Source of the DNA: a virus
Virus record (IMG/VR): IMGVR_UViG_3300042468_001294
Coordinates: 1-52,079 of that record
DNA: 52,079 nucleotides
Reading direction: 5' to 3' (one strand)
Each line of letters opens with the position of its first letter. Within the stretch, counting starts at the first letter, position 1. This document shows, in pieces, positions 13,796 to 52,079 of the stretch. The position numbers were made by a program, and so were the translations under genes. Under the pieces are notes generated by a model. The model made no database searches. It was not told the origin of the DNA and worked only from the letters and a program-made list of their open reading frames with translations.

Positions 13796-14244
13796 GCGAG
13801 TCCAGACTGTGGGAGTACCTGCGCACCGGAATGGGCGCACGATGGGAAGCACAACGGCACGAAGACCGGTTCACACCGGGTATCCCGGACGTGTCTTACT
13901 CGATCACCCGGCACGGTTGGATCGAGTTGAAGTATCTACCGACTAAACCTAAAAAGTCGTCTTCGATCTTGAAAATCGACCATTACACCCAGGATCAACG
14001 TAACTGGGCGATACGCCACGGCAGGAGAGCAGGGTTGTGCTTCATGCTACTCCAGGTGAACAAAACTTACATGCTCTTCGACTGGACGAAAGCGACGCTG
14101 ATCGGATCCACTGATTTCGAGACACACAAACGACTTGCACTCGGTGTTTGGGAGTCAAAAATAGATTGGCGACACCTAAGATCGCTCCTGGTGTCGCCAG
14201 TGGTGAGGGAACAAATCAGCGTTTTTCGTTCAACATCGCCTTAA
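13792..14244 (+). CDS. PD-(D/E)XK / VRR-NUC-like nuclease
   Basis: A 150-residue protein from GTG 13792. Residues 28-50 show the nuclease core: FTPGIPDVSY then a hydrophobic strand with WIELKYLP, giving the PD...ExK pattern. This size fits phage VRR-NUC or endonuclease I-like resolvases acting on branched DNA during replication or packaging. It is the last gene on the plus strand and its 3' end overlaps the convergent methylase gene by 29 bases. The exact substrate is inferred from family. Confidence 0.75.
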   Translation: MSESRLWEYLRTGMGARWEAQRHEDRFTPGIPDVSYSITRHGWIELKYLPTKPKKSSSILKIDHYTQDQRNWAIRHGRRAGLCFMLLQVNKTYMLFDWTKATLIGSTDFETHKRLALGVWESKIDWRHLRSLLVSPVVREQISVFRSTSP

Positions 14245-15343
14245 ACAGCAGCAGGTACAGGATCGCGTCGGACACCCGGCTTTCAATAGGCTCGGACATC
14301 GCGGGATTGTTGGTTTTGCTGAGTTGACCAACATAGGACTTGATCGAGTCGATGTGCTTGTTGAAGTACACTGACCAGACCTGTTCGGGGGTCAGCCCCA
14401 GGTCAACCGCGTTTCGCTTGAAATTCGCCAGTTGATCATCCGACCTGGAGTACTCCTCGCCCTTGCTTCGCGTCAACTCAAGGATTTTGGTGAATTCGTC
14501 CTCGATCAACTCGATGAAGGATTCTTTCGTTGTGGTCCGGGCGGCAGGTGTTAAACCAGGAATGGCGACCTGTTGCTGTTGACGCTGCAACATTTCGCAG
14601 GTCGTCTTGAACAGATGCTTTTGTGAATTGTGGCAAACCAACACCTCGTGGACGGACTTCGTAACCGCCATCGTCAAAGTGTTCCCGAAGTTGTAGAGCA
14701 CTTCGAAATCGTCTGGTACCGTGAATTCGGTGACGAGCACAATGTGACCGTCGTACACCATCGAGCGAACGTTGTTCCAGAAGACCTCTGAATCGAACGG
14801 TTCGGAATCATGTATGTCCCCCGCGTTGGCGTATGGGGGGTCACAATAGATCACACTGTTAGGTGGGATCTTCAATTCTCGGTAGTCGCAGTTGAACAGG
14901 CTGACGTCCTTACCGCTGCGGAACAGATTCAGCCGCTTGGTATCCGTTGAGTTCTTGAGTGTCTTGGCTTTGTTCGTGCCGCCCTTCCCGATCCGAGCTT
15001 CCGGTTTCACGTAGCTCGCGAAGAACCTGGAACCGAACGACATACCAAACCCGTAGTAGGCTGTTTTCCAGTCGTCGGGATCGCGGACCTTTTTGACCTC
15101 GTTGTATTCATCCTCACTGATCTCGTCAGGGAGGACAAAATCGGTGTTGTGCTGGAAAAACGCCCACATGCTCATCAAGCAGCGGCTAACGTCGGACAAG
15201 ATCATCCGTTTGTGGTTCATCCGGGATGCCACCCACATGGAACCGCAAAACGGTTCAACATAAGTTTTCTCCGGGGTCAATACCTCTTCCAGAAACTGGA
15301 TGATCGTGGGGCCTTGACGAAACTTACCACCCATGTAGTTCAT
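14216..15343 (-). CDS. DNA adenine methylase fused to Nmad1-like (DUF1599) domain
   Basis: A 375-residue protein starting MNYMGGKFRQG after GAAGGGAAATAG. Residues 1-245 are a D12-class adenine N6-methylase: TYVEPFCGSMWVASRM binds S-adenosylmethionine and YCDPPYANAG is the catalytic DPPY motif. Residues about 275-375 (KGEEYSRSDDQLANFK, LTPEQVWSVYFNKHIDSI, SRVSDAILYLLLF) resemble the nucleotide modification associated domain 1 / DUF1599 family. The link to the Z cassette is notable, since the template may contain diaminopurine in place of adenine. Target site unknown. Confidence 0.85.
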   Translation of the reverse strand: MNYMGGKFRQGPTIIQFLEEVLTPEKTYVEPFCGSMWVASRMNHKRMILSDVSRCLMSMWAFFQHNTDFVLPDEISEDEYNEVKKVRDPDDWKTAYYGFGMSFGSRFFASYVKPEARIGKGGTNKAKTLKNSTDTKRLNLFRSGKDVSLFNCDYRELKIPPNSVIYCDPPYANAGDIHDSEPFDSEVFWNNVRSMVYDGHIVLVTEFTVPDDFEVLYNFGNTLTMAVTKSVHEVLVCHNSQKHLFKTTCEMLQRQQQQVAIPGLTPAARTTTKESFIELIEDEFTKILELTRSKGEEYSRSDDQLANFKRNAVDLGLTPEQVWSVYFNKHIDSIKSYVGQLSKTNNPAMSEPIESRVSDAILYLLLFKAMLNEKR

Positions 15344-15357
15344 TTAACTATTTCCCT

Positions 15358-15606
15358 TCAGAATTTGACGTTGTAAACAAAGAACCCCTGCCCGCGACAG
15401 GAATACATCACGATGACGAAAATATTCTTGGCGGGGCTAACACTGGAGTGCATCCCCCATTGCGTAGGATCCTCACCAATTTCTCGGCAAACTGCTGCGT
15501 GGACACCAACAGCGATCGATGGGGTTTCGACCGGAAGATAGTGACTTTGTGTGGTGTTCATCGCTGAATCCCACACCGTGATGTACGCCCAAGCGGTTGT
15601 AGTCAT
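15358..15606 (-). CDS. Small protein in Z operon, unknown
   Basis: An 82-residue protein. Start at 15606 chosen because ATGA overlaps the stop of the HTH gene. The sequence alternates strands (TAWAYITVWDSAM, FVIVMYSCRGQGFFVY), suggesting a compact beta fold. No family recognised. Confidence 0.65.
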   Translation of the reverse strand: MTTTAWAYITVWDSAMNTTQSHYLPVETPSIAVGVHAAVCREIGEDPTQWGMHSSVSPAKNIFVIVMYSCRGQGFFVYNVKF

Positions 15607-16010
15607 ACCAATCCCGATCTTGCAGTAAGGTGGCTGAACGGAGTGCGGGGACCCGGATCGGCTCGACGGGCTCGACGTCTTGCGTTGATCATCGCACGAT
15701 TCTTCTCGCGGTACGCTGCCTGCTTCTCCCGCTCGCTCATCTTCTTCGGTTTCTTGATGTCCCGGACATGTGCACTTAGTACATAACCGTACATCGGTGC
15801 CCAATCACCGCCGTTTTCCCGCTCAGCCCGTTGCCAACCACAGATGTAGGCCAAACCTTTTTCGCGCCACAACCGGATGTGCATCAAAATGTTGCGCTTG
15901 CTGATCCCCACTGCTTGCGCAAGTTCATTCGCTGTCAAACCCTCGGGGTTCTCCTTCAAAGCTTTGAGGCCCATGAAGTAGTTGGGGGTCAAATGCCGTT
16001 CTCGTCCCAT
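15603..16010 (-). CDS. Helix-turn-helix DNA-binding protein
   Basis: A 135-residue basic protein. ATG 16010 follows ACAGGAGATTTGCAG. Residues 10-55 form a winged-helix or MarR-like HTH (GLKALKENPEGLTANELAQA, VGISKRNILMHIRLWREKGL). The C-terminal part (KKMSEREKQAAYREKNRA) is a charged helix. A candidate regulator of the early promoters or of its own operon; no target is shown. Confidence 0.75.
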   Translation of the reverse strand: MGRERHLTPNYFMGLKALKENPEGLTANELAQAVGISKRNILMHIRLWREKGLAYICGWQRAERENGGDWAPMYGYVLSAHVRDIKKPKKMSEREKQAAYREKNRAMINARRRARRADPGPRTPFSHLTARSGLV

Positions 16011-16561
16011 CTGCAAATCTCCTGTCTAATCTCGTTAATCACTCGGTGCCAATCGAAATGTGGGTGTCGCGTTTTGGCCGATTCTATCTGGTCGTCGATC
16101 TTTTTGTCAATGAGTCGCTTCACCTCGCTTGCGTGGCCGCCCATTCCCTCGACCGAAAGAAAGTCGACCGCTTCGATATCGTCAGCCAGCTTCACAATTC
16201 GCAGCGCTATCGGGTAATCCTGCTCGATCTTTCGGTAAAGCTTTCTGGTGGGTTCGTCCAACCAAAGTTCGATGTTGAGCATTAGATCGGGATCACCGGC
16301 ACGCTCCTCGATCATTCTCTTGGTTGGAGTGGCCACATCGCCCGTCATCACCTCGGTCAGGTCGTGAGCAAGCGCCCACTCGATGGCCCTGACTTCTTCG
16401 ATGAGCGACACTTTCAGCCTGGAACAAATCTCCTTTGTGATCAGGTACACACGGTACATGTGCTCCGCGATCGTTTGTTCCCTGGCCACACGTACGATTT
16501 GCCACCGCTTCACGTGGCCCGTACGTAGCTGCTGCTTGAGCGTCAGGCGATTACGGTTCAT
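15989..16561 (-). CDS. datZ: DatZ-type dATP triphosphohydrolase (HD domain)
   Basis: A 190-residue HD-domain hydrolase. HVKRWQIVRVAREQTIAEHM at the start, then ALAHDLTEVMTGDVATPTKR and KLADDIEAVDFL, provide the H...HD...D metal ligands of the YfbR/DatZ group. In Z-genome phages DatZ removes dATP so the polymerase does not incorporate adenine. Overlaps mazZ start-to-stop on the upstream side and the HTH gene downstream. Confidence 0.9.
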   Translation of the reverse strand: MNRNRLTLKQQLRTGHVKRWQIVRVAREQTIAEHMYRVYLITKEICSRLKVSLIEEVRAIEWALAHDLTEVMTGDVATPTKRMIEERAGDPDLMLNIELWLDEPTRKLYRKIEQDYPIALRIVKLADDIEAVDFLSVEGMGGHASEVKRLIDKKIDDQIESAKTRHPHFDWHRVINEIRQEICRWDENGI

Positions 16562-16844
16562 GTTGCAGTGTCCCGGTTGCGGTCACTCGCCACGTTCTGG
16601 CCTTATTTATCTGCATCTTTTCCTTGATCGCGCTTGCCAAATCGACCCCGTGCATGTGGGCCAGATCGAACACCATGATGCAGATGTCCGCGTATTCACC
16701 CGGCGAATGAGGGTCTTTGACCAATTCACCGACTTCCTCAAACAGCTTGAGGAGAGCCGAAGAATTGGTACGATCAGGGAACACTTGATCTGCCCACTCG
16801 ACAATTTCTTGTGTCAGTTCGTCGATGTTCCCTGTGGTATGCAT
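16551..16844 (-). CDS. mazZ: MazZ, MazG-like dGTP pyrophosphohydrolase
   Basis: A 97-residue single MazG-fold protein. LKLFEEVGELVKD and EYADICIMVFDLAHMHG give the ExxE...ExxD Mg-binding motif, followed by KEKMQINKARTW. In Z phages MazZ turns dGTP (and GTP) into the monophosphate that feeds PurZ. It begins three bases after the purZ stop and overlaps datZ, as expected of one operon. Confidence 0.9.
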   Translation of the reverse strand: MHTTGNIDELTQEIVEWADQVFPDRTNSSALLKLFEEVGELVKDPHSPGEYADICIMVFDLAHMHGVDLASAIKEKMQINKARTWRVTATGTLQHEP

Positions 16845-16846
16845 GT

Positions 16847-17887
16847 TCAGACCCCCACCCGGTGGACGTCATGGAAAGTGGGCCCCCGGCCAATCCAATG
16901 CACCGTAGCGCCGCTTTCTTCGTCGATGCGTCGAATCATGTCCCTTACGTGGTTCTCGCAGGACAGATAATTCGTGAAATTCAAAAAAATTTGGTTGACC
17001 CCGCACATTCGCACCGCTTCGGTGACCTGCTGCATCGAGAACGTGAAAATCCGGCGCGGCAACTTGGTCACAGTCGTGAGTTCGACCTCCTGGCCGATCA
17101 TTTCGAAAGTGATCTCCTCTTGGTCCGAATAGGCGGGGCCACTCCAACCCACCTGCTCACCGGCTTCGTTAAACCGATTGGCCACACGAATCGGGTAGGT
17201 GCGAGCCGTGCCGATGACTTCAAGGTCACCAAAGCGGTGCGGGATACCGCAATCCGCCAGTACTTGATTCGTCGATACATCACGGGAAGTGCAGTACGGG
17301 TAGAACCCGTGATACATCGACAGGCTGTAACCCTGTGCACCTTCGATTTGGACATACTCGGAGTCGTCGAGCAACATTGCGTATTGCTGCGGAGTCACGA
17401 CCGTCACCCAATCGAGCACCCGGTGACCACGCAAAGCAAAAGCAGCCGTGTTCATGTCCTCAGGATCGCGCCTGATTCGCTGGATCGCCGCCGCCCCAAC
17501 GCCCTTCTTGGTCGAACCGATCTTGGTCATGGGACCGGCTTCCTCATCCCGGTGTCGTTGGCTGATCACCGCCGCATTTTGATGGACGAAAATGTGAGCA
17601 CCAGCCAGGTAACCGGAGGCTTCCTGGCATTCACGCAAGAGATTATCCGGGTCGATAATGGAGCCCGGGCCAATCAGTATCTGTTTCAGCCCTTTCGACA
17701 CGATACCATTGGCCAACATCGTATGGACGAAGCGGCGACCCGCCGAGTCGATGTAAGTGTGTCCAGCGTTCGCGGCCCATGCCGTAACCAACGTATCCGG
17801 GTTGTTCTGCTCAGCCAGGTAACCTGCCAGCAAACCCTTACCCGTGGACCCGAATTGCAGGTCCATGATCATGTCAATTTTACGCAT
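16847..17887 (-). CDS. purZ: PurZ, N6-succino-2-amino-2'-deoxyadenylate synthase
   Basis: A 346-residue member of the adenylosuccinate synthetase family, shorter than cellular PurA. The P-loop reads DLQFGSTGKGL where PurA has GDEGKGK, so the catalytic Asp is Ser, a change described for PurZ enzymes. Other PurA features remain (ANAGHTYI, IGPGSIIDPDNLL, QIEGAQGYSLS, SRDVSTNQVLADCG, GTARTYPIRVAN). PurZ joins aspartate to dGMP; host PurB then yields dZMP. Start follows AGGAGATAGACTCAAA, with its own promoter at 17919. Confidence 0.95.
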   Translation of the reverse strand: MRKIDMIMDLQFGSTGKGLLAGYLAEQNNPDTLVTAWAANAGHTYIDSAGRRFVHTMLANGIVSKGLKQILIGPGSIIDPDNLLRECQEASGYLAGAHIFVHQNAAVISQRHRDEEAGPMTKIGSTKKGVGAAAIQRIRRDPEDMNTAAFALRGHRVLDWVTVVTPQQYAMLLDDSEYVQIEGAQGYSLSMYHGFYPYCTSRDVSTNQVLADCGIPHRFGDLEVIGTARTYPIRVANRFNEAGEQVGWSGPAYSDQEEITFEMIGQEVELTTVTKLPRRIFTFSMQQVTEAVRMCGVNQIFLNFTNYLSCENHVRDMIRRIDEESGATVHWIGRGPTFHDVHRVGV

Positions 17888-17913
17888 TTTGAGTCTATCT
17901 CCTATGAAAGAAA

Positions 17914-18171
17914 CTACGATTTTAACACGTCACCAGACGCGCTGGCAATCTGCGCTTTCCACTCCTCGACCAAGCGACTCAATCGGCCACTTGTCGTGAT
18001 GATCTTCGGGTCGAGCATATGGAACTGCCCGATCAAAATCTCGCCCTTTTTGTGATTCATGATTCGGAAGGCTTCCAGCCCTTTGCCTGAACTCCCTACC
18101 GTGTAACCCCTCTTTTGGGCCCAAAGTAAGAACGAACCGCGCATATGGGCCGCGAATTCATGACGCTTCAT
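17914..18171 (-). CDS. Unknown 85-residue protein in Z cassette
   Basis: Start at 18171 overlaps the stop of the deaminase gene (ATGA). The sequence (GYTVGSSGKGLEAFRIMNHK, ILIGQFHML) has an alpha-beta pattern and a Gly-rich loop but no assignable family. The purZ promoter lies across its 3' end. It may be an accessory of nucleotide metabolism; this rests on position only. Confidence 0.7.
   Translation of the reverse strand: MKRHEFAAHMRGSFLLWAQKRGYTVGSSGKGLEAFRIMNHKKGEILIGQFHMLDPKIITTSGRLSRLVEEWKAQIASASGDVLKS
17919..17948 (-). promoter_or_regulatory. Promoter of purZ-mazZ-datZ unit
   Basis: On the minus strand, TTGCCA (17948-17943), 18 nt, TAAAAT (17924-17919), 32 bases before the purZ start. 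It overlaps the 3' end of the preceding gene. Confidence 0.6.
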
Positions 18172-18578
18172 GGTTTCACCTCTTCGCAAACGACACCTGC
18201 CTTGTTCAAGAAATCGACACCATCTGTGTTGTGGTACGCGTCCCGGTAGTACACTTTTCGGATATTAGCTCCGAGCACCCGTTTCGCGCACTCTATGCAG
18301 GGTGCCGTGGTCACAAACATCACCGCATTTTCACTCGAAACGGTGCTGCGCGTGATCTTGTCCAACGCGTTTTGTTCAGCGTGGATGACCTCGGGCCTGG
18401 TTTTGTTCCAGTCATCTTCGCAATCATTATCCCAGCCGGGTGGGGTGCCGTTGTAACCGATACCGATGATGGTGTCATACTTTACGATAACACACCCAAC
18501 TTTTCGTCGCTCCGCATAACTGAGTTCCGCGTAAATCTCGGCCACTTTCATGTGGGCTTTGATGAATTTCGTTTTCAT
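18168..18578 (-). CDS. dCMP deaminase
   Basis: A 136-residue zinc deaminase. VIHAEQNAL supplies the His and catalytic Glu, and TTAPCIECAK the two Cys zinc ligands; GYNGTPPGW is the usual substrate loop. It converts dCMP to dUMP, the precursor of dTMP, and suits high dTTP demand. No thymidylate synthase was seen in the window. Coupled with the genes on both sides. Confidence 0.92.
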   Translation of the reverse strand: MKTKFIKAHMKVAEIYAELSYAERRKVGCVIVKYDTIIGIGYNGTPPGWDNDCEDDWNKTRPEVIHAEQNALDKITRSTVSSENAVMFVTTAPCIECAKRVLGANIRKVYYRDAYHNTDGVDFLNKAGVVCEEVKP

Positions 18579-18652
18579 ATCAATGCTTCTCCTACGGTTT
18601 TCTTAGCTTCTTTGTATTTCGAGTCCAGCCGGGGACCGGGGTTGAAATACAT
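18575..18652 (-). CDS. 25-residue peptide upstream of deaminase
   Basis: ATG 18652 follows AGGAAAAAGGGAAA and encodes a basic peptide (MYFNPGPRLDSKYKEAKKTV and five more) whose TGA overlaps the deaminase ATG. The ribosome binding site and overlap support translation. It may only couple ribosomes onto the next gene. Confidence 0.5.
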   Translation of the reverse strand: MYFNPGPRLDSKYKEAKKTVGEALI

Positions 18653-18705
18653 TTTCCCTTTTTCCTGGTAGAACAAAAACGGCCAATTCGGTCGTTTCTT
18701 GGTTT

Positions 18706-20544
18706 CTACTTGCTGGCCGTCCACCAATTTGGTCCGCATCCTTGATCCGTTCTGATTGGTACTCTAAACTTTATCGGCGTCGTCGCGCCACTGAAATCGG
18801 TCACGATTCGAGTGATCTCGGGTTTGATGTCCGGGCTGTCCAGCGGCACCGAGGTATCGAATTCGTCGTGCACATTCAAAAGCAGCCGTGCACCGCAATC
18901 CTGTTCCTTCAAAAACCGGTGCAATTCGATCAATTTCACTTTCAGAGCATCCGCCGCTGATCCCTGGAAAATCAAGCCACCTGCTTTGTGCGTGAACTGG
19001 CCCCGGGGGAAACGGATGTGCCTGCCCATAATGGTGCGCACATGCCCTCTCGATTTTGCTACGCTCGACGCATTCTTCAAAAGGTCCTGTACTCCGGGGA
19101 TAGCTGCGTGGTATTTATTGAACACTTCGACGGCCTGATCACCCGGCTTGAGCCACTGCTTTTTGCCATCGTCACTTGATTCGACAGTGTAGGGTAGGCC
19201 CATTTCGGCAGCGAGCTTGCCCTGCCCCATACCGAACACGAGCCCTAGGTTAATCTGCTTTGCATTCGGATCCCCCGCGAACCGGGGCGAGCGAGGTAAC
19301 CCCGTCAAATCCGCCGCCAGTCGGTGGAAATCCGTGTCCGGGTCCGTTTCGTACATCTTCAGGATACGCTCGTCGTTCACGTAGTGAGCAAACACCCGAA
19401 AGTCCATCTGCGACCAGTCGTTGCAAACCCATTCACTTCGATCATCAGGCAAAAACAAAGCCCGGACAACCGATGCAATACCGGCGTCACGCTTGTGGAT
19501 TTGCTGCAGCGCTGGCGCATTGACCGACAGTCGACCCGTACCAGTGCCGAGATCGTTGTCGGATTTAGTCTGGTTGAAATTCGCGTGGATCACCCCGTTG
19601 TGGTGGTGTCCGAGAATATGGCCTTTGAGGAACGTATCCCTCGTCTTGATCAGCTTTCGCAGATTCAGAATCAAGGCAGCCGCTGGGTCCTTCATCGATC
19701 GCAAAGCGTCGGAATCGATACTCGGAGCACCAGCGGGGGTAGCAGCCACACGGGTTCCGTCGCGCACCACCCAATTACCCGACTCGTCCTTCTTTGGCTT
19801 AAACAATTCCTTGATCGAGTTCGACGGGTTGGGATTCACCTCAAAACCGGCGAGTTGATTCAGATCGTACTGAGCCTGCTTAGTCGCGTGGTCAATATCC
19901 TTCACCGCGAGTTCTGCTGCTTCGATATCGATCGCGACACCGCCGTGTTCCATATCGACCAACACAGGGAGCAATTCTCGCTCAAGTTCAGCCACCACGT
20001 GCAGGCCCTGCTTTTCGATCTCAGCCCGTTGCCACTGCCAGAGCTTCAGCGTAGTCCGAGTGTCCTGCTTCGCATACCTGCCAACCAGCGATTTCGGTGC
20101 TCGCGGTAAATTGGCGATTTGGCCGTTTTTCGTCGGGCGACCACCGAACAACTCCGCTAAATCCTGCCAGATATCCGAGTCCTTGCCCTGACCCAGGTAC
20201 TTCTTGCCCAGCGTATCGAGGTCGTAAGACAGCAGGTGTTCGTCGATCAATGCTGCCCGCACCATAGTGTCGTCCACCCGATCGGCGGGGAATCGAATAC
20301 CGATCTCGCGACACATATGCCAATCAAACTTGGCGTTATGGCAGATGACGAGGTTACACCGGGGCACTTGATCACGTAGGTACTCCACCGCGTGTGGGTC
20401 CCGGCGAATGTCCCAGTAGTAATCCTCGCCATCGGGAGTAGAGACAGAAACCCCGAAAACGCGATCCGACCACCACTTCAGTCCTGTTGTCTCGGTATCT
20501 AAAGCCAAGTATTCAAATCGCGTCAGATCGGGGTACATGCTCAT
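18706..20544 (-). CDS. dpoZ: Family A DNA polymerase, DpoZ-like
   Basis: A 612-residue polymerase with 3'-5' exonuclease. Exonuclease motifs: LALDTETTGL (residue ~14), CHNAKFDWHM (~84) and GRYAKQDTRTT (~155). Polymerase motifs: A, CNDWSQMDFRVFAHY (~380); B, NAKQINLGLVFGMGQGKLA (~435); C, LLLNVHDEF (~560). With PurZ, MazZ and DatZ next to it, this is the expected DpoZ, shown in related phages to prefer dZTP over dATP. Preference here is inferred. Confidence 0.93.
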   Translation of the reverse strand: MSMYPDLTRFEYLALDTETTGLKWWSDRVFGVSVSTPDGEDYYWDIRRDPHAVEYLRDQVPRCNLVICHNAKFDWHMCREIGIRFPADRVDDTMVRAALIDEHLLSYDLDTLGKKYLGQGKDSDIWQDLAELFGGRPTKNGQIANLPRAPKSLVGRYAKQDTRTTLKLWQWQRAEIEKQGLHVVAELERELLPVLVDMEHGGVAIDIEAAELAVKDIDHATKQAQYDLNQLAGFEVNPNPSNSIKELFKPKKDESGNWVVRDGTRVAATPAGAPSIDSDALRSMKDPAAALILNLRKLIKTRDTFLKGHILGHHHNGVIHANFNQTKSDNDLGTGTGRLSVNAPALQQIHKRDAGIASVVRALFLPDDRSEWVCNDWSQMDFRVFAHYVNDERILKMYETDPDTDFHRLAADLTGLPRSPRFAGDPNAKQINLGLVFGMGQGKLAAEMGLPYTVESSDDGKKQWLKPGDQAVEVFNKYHAAIPGVQDLLKNASSVAKSRGHVRTIMGRHIRFPRGQFTHKAGGLIFQGSAADALKVKLIELHRFLKEQDCGARLLLNVHDEFDTSVPLDSPDIKPEITRIVTDFSGATTPIKFRVPIRTDQGCGPNWWTASK

Positions 20545-51980: not shown

Positions 51981-52050
51981 GTTGGGGGGCGGGCCCCGCC
52001 GCCGCCGCCCGGGGGCCCCCCCGGGGGGCCCCCCCCGCCGCCGAGGAGAT
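51981..52050. other. GC-only low-complexity terminus
   Basis: Runs of C, G and GCC/CCG triplets with almost no A or T, matching the composition of bases 1-240. The two ends probably adjoin in a circular or terminally redundant genome. Confidence 0.6.
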
Positions 52051-52055
52051 ATCCC

Positions 52056-52079
52056 ATGCCCTGCCCCCCCGCCCCCGCC
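52056..52079 (+). CDS. Start of a gene running off the right edge
   Basis: ATG 52056 follows GAGGAGATATCCC, the same type of ribosome binding site as the early genes. It opens a Pro/Ala/Cys-rich frame that leaves the window. It may continue in the Ala/Arg-rich frame at the left end. Confidence 0.45.

Follow-up and report, generated by a model that had tools for sequence, protein, structure and literature searches.

The window, the whole of IMG/VR record IMGVR_UViG_3300042468_001294 (52,079 bases), carries a real, complete, and divergent gene cassette for replacing adenine (A) with 2-aminoadenine (Z), and this cassette is a further example of the known Z system. Judging from the sequence, the Z cluster is very probably a working one, and the phage would replicate its DNA with Z substituted for A. 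The set of known Z clusters grows by one that is divergent and complete and comes from an uncultivated siphovirus. Two features are not in the published accounts cited here: some Z phages have a gene for a small helical protein directly after datZ, and the window encodes a methyltransferase for adenine although its genome is expected to be adenine-free. The added value of the window lies in these two features, a PHROG 6802-like accessory gene and its fusion to a methyltransferase.

The source of the window is an uncultivated tailed phage, a siphovirus, and siphovirus genes for tail, head, and packaging are present. We found no tRNA genes and no terminal repeat of at least 20 bases in the window, and a search of the phage collection gave no nearly identical DNA. 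Both ends (positions 1-80 and 51995-52079) are low-complexity runs of G and C only, which are probably an assembly artefact. The major capsid, portal, or endolysin protein is 100% identical on three short contigs (IMGVR_UViG_3300044635_001932, 3300042470_000716, and 3300042470_000586), indicating that the same or a near-identical phage is present in other samples.

Genes from ~25.7 to 14.2 kb are transcribed leftward, in the order UvrD-like helicase, single-stranded DNA-binding protein (SSB), DpoZ, dCMP deaminase, 91-aa ORF, PurZ, MazZ, DatZ, winged-HTH protein, 82-aa ORF, and methyltransferase fusion. The preliminary description had placed PurZ, MazZ, DatZ, DpoZ, and a dCMP deaminase in one leftward string, and these are indeed five intact minus-strand ORFs within 14216-20544. 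The same interval also holds the methyltransferase fusion, the 82-aa ORF, the winged-HTH protein, and the 91-aa ORF, which that description did not name. The features are as follows (L002 and L003 are related loci).

18706..20544, minus strand: DpoZ, aminoadenine-preferring family A DNA polymerase with a 3'-5' exonuclease domain, 612 aa (NF038380)
18168..18578, minus strand: dCMP deaminase, accessory, 136 aa (PF00383; phrog_174, 5e-47)
17914..18189, minus strand: 91-aa ORF (42% in L002, 41% in L003)
16847..17887, minus strand: PurZ, N6-succino-2-amino-dAMP synthetase, 346 aa (NF038379; phrog_1211, 6e-83)
16551..16844, minus strand: MazZ (MazZ-1 type), dGTP pyrophosphohydrolase, 97 aa (PF04447)
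15989..16561, minus strand: DatZ, HD-domain dATP triphosphohydrolase, 190 aa (phrog_7076, 1.3e-29)
15603..16016, minus strand: winged-HTH protein, 137 aa, TTG start (HTH_24 and MarR_2 matches under cut-off; 54% in L002, 50% in L003)
15358..15606, minus strand: 82-aa ORF, its frame overlapping the winged-HTH stop; by eye like a 97-aa ORF at 5453-5746 of L003
14624..15343, minus strand: D12-class adenine-N6 DNA methyltransferase domain, residues 1-240 (PF02086; phrog_56, 7.6e-30)
14216..14548, minus strand: C-terminal PHROG 6802-like all-helical domain, last 110 residues (phrog_6802, 1.1e-14)

Adjacent genes in this string overlap or are separated by 26 bp or less, except for one gap of 127 bp between DpoZ and the dCMP deaminase. 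The genes purZ, mazZ, and datZ are contiguous with mazZ central (a purZ/mazZ gap of 2 bp and a mazZ/datZ overlap of 11 bp). Scans for promoters and terminators gave no signal above the level of shuffled sequence. The winged-HTH protein encoded directly after datZ is, by sequence, a candidate regulator; a marR-type repressor is found at a gene junction of cyanophage S-2L (PMC8342488).

The identity of PurZ is the critical point, since the protein could alternatively be a standard adenylosuccinate synthetase or a PurZ0 of the archaeal type, with generic nucleotide enzymes as its neighbours. The PurZ fold is derived from that of PurA, and the window protein is matched by PurA models too, but each of them scores far under its own cut-off, while the curated NCBI model for PurZ (NF038379) is matched at 358.9 bits (cut-off 300). 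The closest PDB entry is S-2L PurZ (7odx, 3.7e-87). In the active loop, FGSTGKG, Ser14 aligns with S-2L Ser23 and replaces the Asp of PurA (Asp in Salmonella PurA). The PurZ0 loop, FGSEAKG, also has Ser, and therefore a tree is required to separate PurZ from PurZ0. We compared 20 S-2L positions around dGMP and ATP, as named in PMC8342488, and found 19 of them unchanged in the window; the remaining one, Tyr21, is Phe in the window, in phiVC8, and in SH-Ab 15497. The phylogeny called for in the preliminary description was run for PurZ, and the maximum-likelihood tree puts the window on the PurZ side, with all Z-phage PurZs split from PurZ0 and cellular (Salmonella) PurA by a branch of 99/98. The exact place of the window among the PurZs has weak support. 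Because PurA sequences have very long branches and the PurZ side also takes in a PurA-like sequence from a Flavobacterium phage (branch 7.25), the split between PurZ and PurZ0 is the sole result that we trust from this tree. Based on the model scores, the Asp-to-Ser change, the tree position, and the Z-type character of DatZ, MazZ, and DpoZ, we give the PurA or PurZ0 alternative a negligible probability. The window PurZ is predicted to use dGMP, as in the published pathway.

A separate observation concerns a divergent PurA-like protein of 447 aa encoded by Flavobacterium phage MaF61 (PQ858689.1, 118051-119394 and 129735-131090) and by the loci L174 and L263. Its loop in MaF61 is FGSSGKG, in which Ser replaces the catalytic Asp, and its best NCBIfam match is PurZ at 145 bits, which does not reach the cut-off of 300. 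Among the other products of MaF61 are an annotated adenylosuccinate lyase and a ribonucleotide reductase. By sequence, a divergent Z-type pathway is possible in this phage.

The other three Z enzymes were examined in the same way. DpoZ scores 847.9 bits against the curated NCBI model NF038380 (cut-off 500), and its closest PDB entry is phiVC8 DpoZ (7pbk, 1.7e-139). The signatures and insertions of the phiVC8 clade are set out in PMC8599892. Signature residues Leu455 and Gly548 correspond to L433 and G523 in the window, and the segments of insertions 1 and 3 were found; insertion 2 is recognisable only in a structure. The helix-O segment is alignable, with PNAKQINLGLVFGMG having Phe at the position of Klenow's Tyr. 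The NCBIfam name DpoZ_1 refers to the type of phiVC8, and the group numbering in PMC12884076 is reversed. MazZ matches the Pfam family dATP-dGTP_PPHyd at 43.6 bits (cut-off 23) and is closest to S-2L MazZ (7ody, 5.5e-18). The MazZ-1 metal ligands E35, E38, E50, and D53 and the guanine contacts I56, D60, and R83 are identical in the window. It departs from S-2L at I16, N20, and A92, which the paper cited for the S-2L residues calls unique to S-2L, and the differences at L57, M93, and R94 are either conservative or located at the pocket's C-terminal edge. DatZ matches the Pfam YfbR-like family at 46.2 bits (cut-off 25.9) and is closest to S-2L DatZ (6zpa, 3.2e-18). Its HD metal site is kept, and R19, W20, I22, P79, K81, and K116 are conserved, as is K124. 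The dATP specificity of DatZ comes from W20, which excludes ribose, and I22, which excludes the 2-amino group (PMC8065100). All of the motifs quoted for the four Z enzymes in the preliminary description are present and align with catalytic residues, and its assignment of each enzyme to a Z-specific family is borne out by curated models, closest structures, specificity residues, and gene order, and for PurZ by the tree as well. At the level of sequence, these family matches are far beyond chance.

The analysis itself establishes the families of the proteins, their conserved residues, the synteny, and the intactness of the reading frames, while each reaction and the final DNA content are taken from published biochemistry (PMC8342488, PMC8065100, PMC8599892, and PMC12884076). 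By that pathway, MazZ would convert dGTP to dGMP, PurZ would join dGMP and aspartate to give dSMP, host PurB and kinases would carry dSMP to dZTP, DatZ would destroy dATP, and DpoZ would prefer dZTP opposite T, giving a genome with Z for A that would escape restriction enzymes that read adenine. The Z content of virion DNA would follow from this published pathway. A search of the window found, as expected, no PurB-family lyase, so the host would have to supply this enzyme as well as the kinases of the published pathway, which is also the case for S-2L and phiVC8. The dCMP deaminase, which matches Pfam dCMP_cyt_deam_1 at 72.2 bits (cut-off 25) and is common only to the window and L002 among the Z loci, most likely supplies dUMP for dTTP synthesis.

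One gene in the operon speaks against this reading. Methyltransferases of the D12 class normally act on adenine, which would be missing from a fully substituted genome. If the cluster were intact and substitution only partial, the DNA would be a mixture of A and Z in which the methyltransferase guards the remaining A sites. Two observations fit this possibility: the D12 gene belongs to the gene string of the cluster, with only 14 bp between it and the ORF before it, and Z clusters moved into E. coli gave only partial substitution (PMC8342488). On the other hand, the window encodes both DatZ and a Z-preferring DpoZ with conserved specificity residues, a pairing that accompanies full replacement in known Z phages, and we therefore consider partial substitution improbable and full replacement of A by Z the better reading.

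The methyltransferase is part of a 375-aa ORF (14216-15343, minus strand), in which a D12 domain is followed by a joint of ~30 residues and an all-helical domain of ~100 aa resembling PHROG 6802. PHROG 56, which comprises phage D12 methyltransferases, and PHROG 6802 are each matched by one domain of this protein. The methyltransferase domain scores 45.7 bits against PF02086 (cut-off 22), and in comparison with 61 homologues its motifs are intact (DPPY at residues 168-171, EPFCG, and the glycine-rich SAM loop/GGK region). Most of the homologous methyltransferases stop near residue 235. At the position of the start codon of separate 6802 genes, the window has a Thr codon (ACG), which is consistent with a true, though putative, fusion in the assembled sequence. 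Such a fusion was not seen in any other locus examined. For the fused enzyme, the most likely role is methylation of a short site in phage DNA, with Z or residual A as the target, or else methylation of entering or host DNA. According to PMC8342488, E. coli methyltransferases accept Z-containing sites as substrates in vitro, with an efficiency that is lower by a factor of ten or more. Counts of GATC (1.04 of expectation) and other 4-mer palindromes showed nothing clear.

In seven other PurZ phages, the 6802 domain is a stand-alone gene just downstream of datZ; among them are L003, L005, L011, and L043, which had been retrieved by their PurZ. A search with the 6802 domain alone, which depends less on PurZ, gave nine further loci. 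All four of those with at least 47% identity have mazZ and datZ just upstream, and PurZ is present in three of these four records, two of them over the curated cut-off; the contig of the fourth, L161, starts inside mazZ. None of the five loci with at most 45% identity has PurZ, and PurZ was not found in the complete genomes of two 6802-bearing phages, Microcystis phage Mel-JY34 and Xanthomonas phage phiXF1. Close relatives of the domain (at least 46% identity) were found beside Z clusters only, and distant ones in phages without PurZ. In a tree of the domain, the Z members lie on one side of a branch of 78/84, and none of 500 label shuffles was equally clustered. The identity split and the tree together indicate that a PHROG 6802 subfamily travels with the Z cluster.

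The 6802-like domain has no Pfam match above cut-off, and its profile found nothing credible among PDB sequences and likewise nothing in NCBIfam. The predicted model (pLDDT 88.6) has four helices; Foldseek gave no match under an E value of 1, and the Z values of a structural aligner (AF_0060, 8.1; DCTPP1, 6.0; dCTPase, 5.8; YpjD, 4.9; DR2231, 4.7; MazG, 4.5) are within the noise for helical bundles. The canonical ExxE metal site of all-alpha NTP pyrophosphatases was not seen, and a match to DUF1599 is below threshold and confined to two distant relatives. As a first guess, the four-helix fold of the model and its weak resemblance to all-alpha NTP pyrophosphatases may point to a nucleotide-handling role. 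The latest account of nucleotide enzymes in Z phages (PMC12884076) covers DutZ, DmtZ, DatZ, MazZ-2, DUF550, and DUF5664 and does not name the 6802 gene. We consider the 6802-like domain most likely to be an unrecognised accessory of the Z cluster that acts on nucleotides or in DNA modification. The bolder proposal that, as such an accessory, it is fused to a D12 enzyme that would methylate N6 of 2-aminoadenine, giving a doubly modified genome base, seems to us unlikely.

D12 methyltransferases were found in none of 46 other Z-phage records and N6_N4 methyltransferases in one of 46, compared with 1/35 and 0/35, respectively, in control contigs without PurZ; PF05869 was matched in 0/47. These counts are rough, since several Z records are incomplete or mutually close, and too few contigs were obtained when portal and major capsid relatives were used to set the baseline instead. 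We rejected selection against adenine methyltransferases in Z phages because the controls are as low (D12, 1/35 versus 0/46), and the rarity of D12 in Z phages is background. An N6/N4 DNA methyltransferase unrelated to the D12 enzyme of the window lies between purZ and mazZ in L003 (1950-2672). Mel-JY34 is not a Z phage; its 6802 gene and a DNA methylase gene are separated by a single small gene. With the window, this makes three cases of a 6802 domain near a DNA methyltransferase, which are too few for a claim.

We compared the cassette with 207 cultured phage records that have a PurZ relative and with 62 uncultivated IMG/VR loci. The order DpoZ-PurZ-MazZ-DatZ is found in nearly all of the 62 loci that are long enough (the exceptions are L048, without a MazZ match, and L009, without a DatZ match) and in cultured Z phages too. 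Because this order recurs in dozens of uncultivated phages as well as in cultured ones, the cassette is not a new system. Its closest relative is L002 (DpoZ 80%, PurZ 71%), which has the dCMP deaminase, the 91-aa ORF, and the winged-HTH protein; no methyltransferase or 6802 domain was found on its contig, which stops ~1.5 kb past the winged-HTH gene and has unrelated genes there. Acinetobacter phage SH-Ab 15497 and its Klebsiella, Salmonella, and Pseudomonas relatives likewise cluster helicase, DpoZ, SSB, PurZ, DUF550/MazZ, and DatZ in a similar order, with identities to the window of about 47-50% for DpoZ and 49-52% for PurZ. In that group MazZ is fused to an N-terminal DUF5664 domain (PMC12884076), whereas the window MazZ is bare at 97 aa, and the window has an extra dCMP deaminase, winged-HTH protein, and methyltransferase fusion. 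S-2L has the same purZ, mazZ, datZ order and a bare MazZ-1, and it provides the nearest solved structures for PurZ, MazZ, and DatZ, but it has PrimPol and no DpoZ, while the window has DpoZ. The window DpoZ belongs to the clade of Vibrio phage phiVC8, although phiVC8 has MazZ-2 and a PurZ only 44% identical to that of the window.
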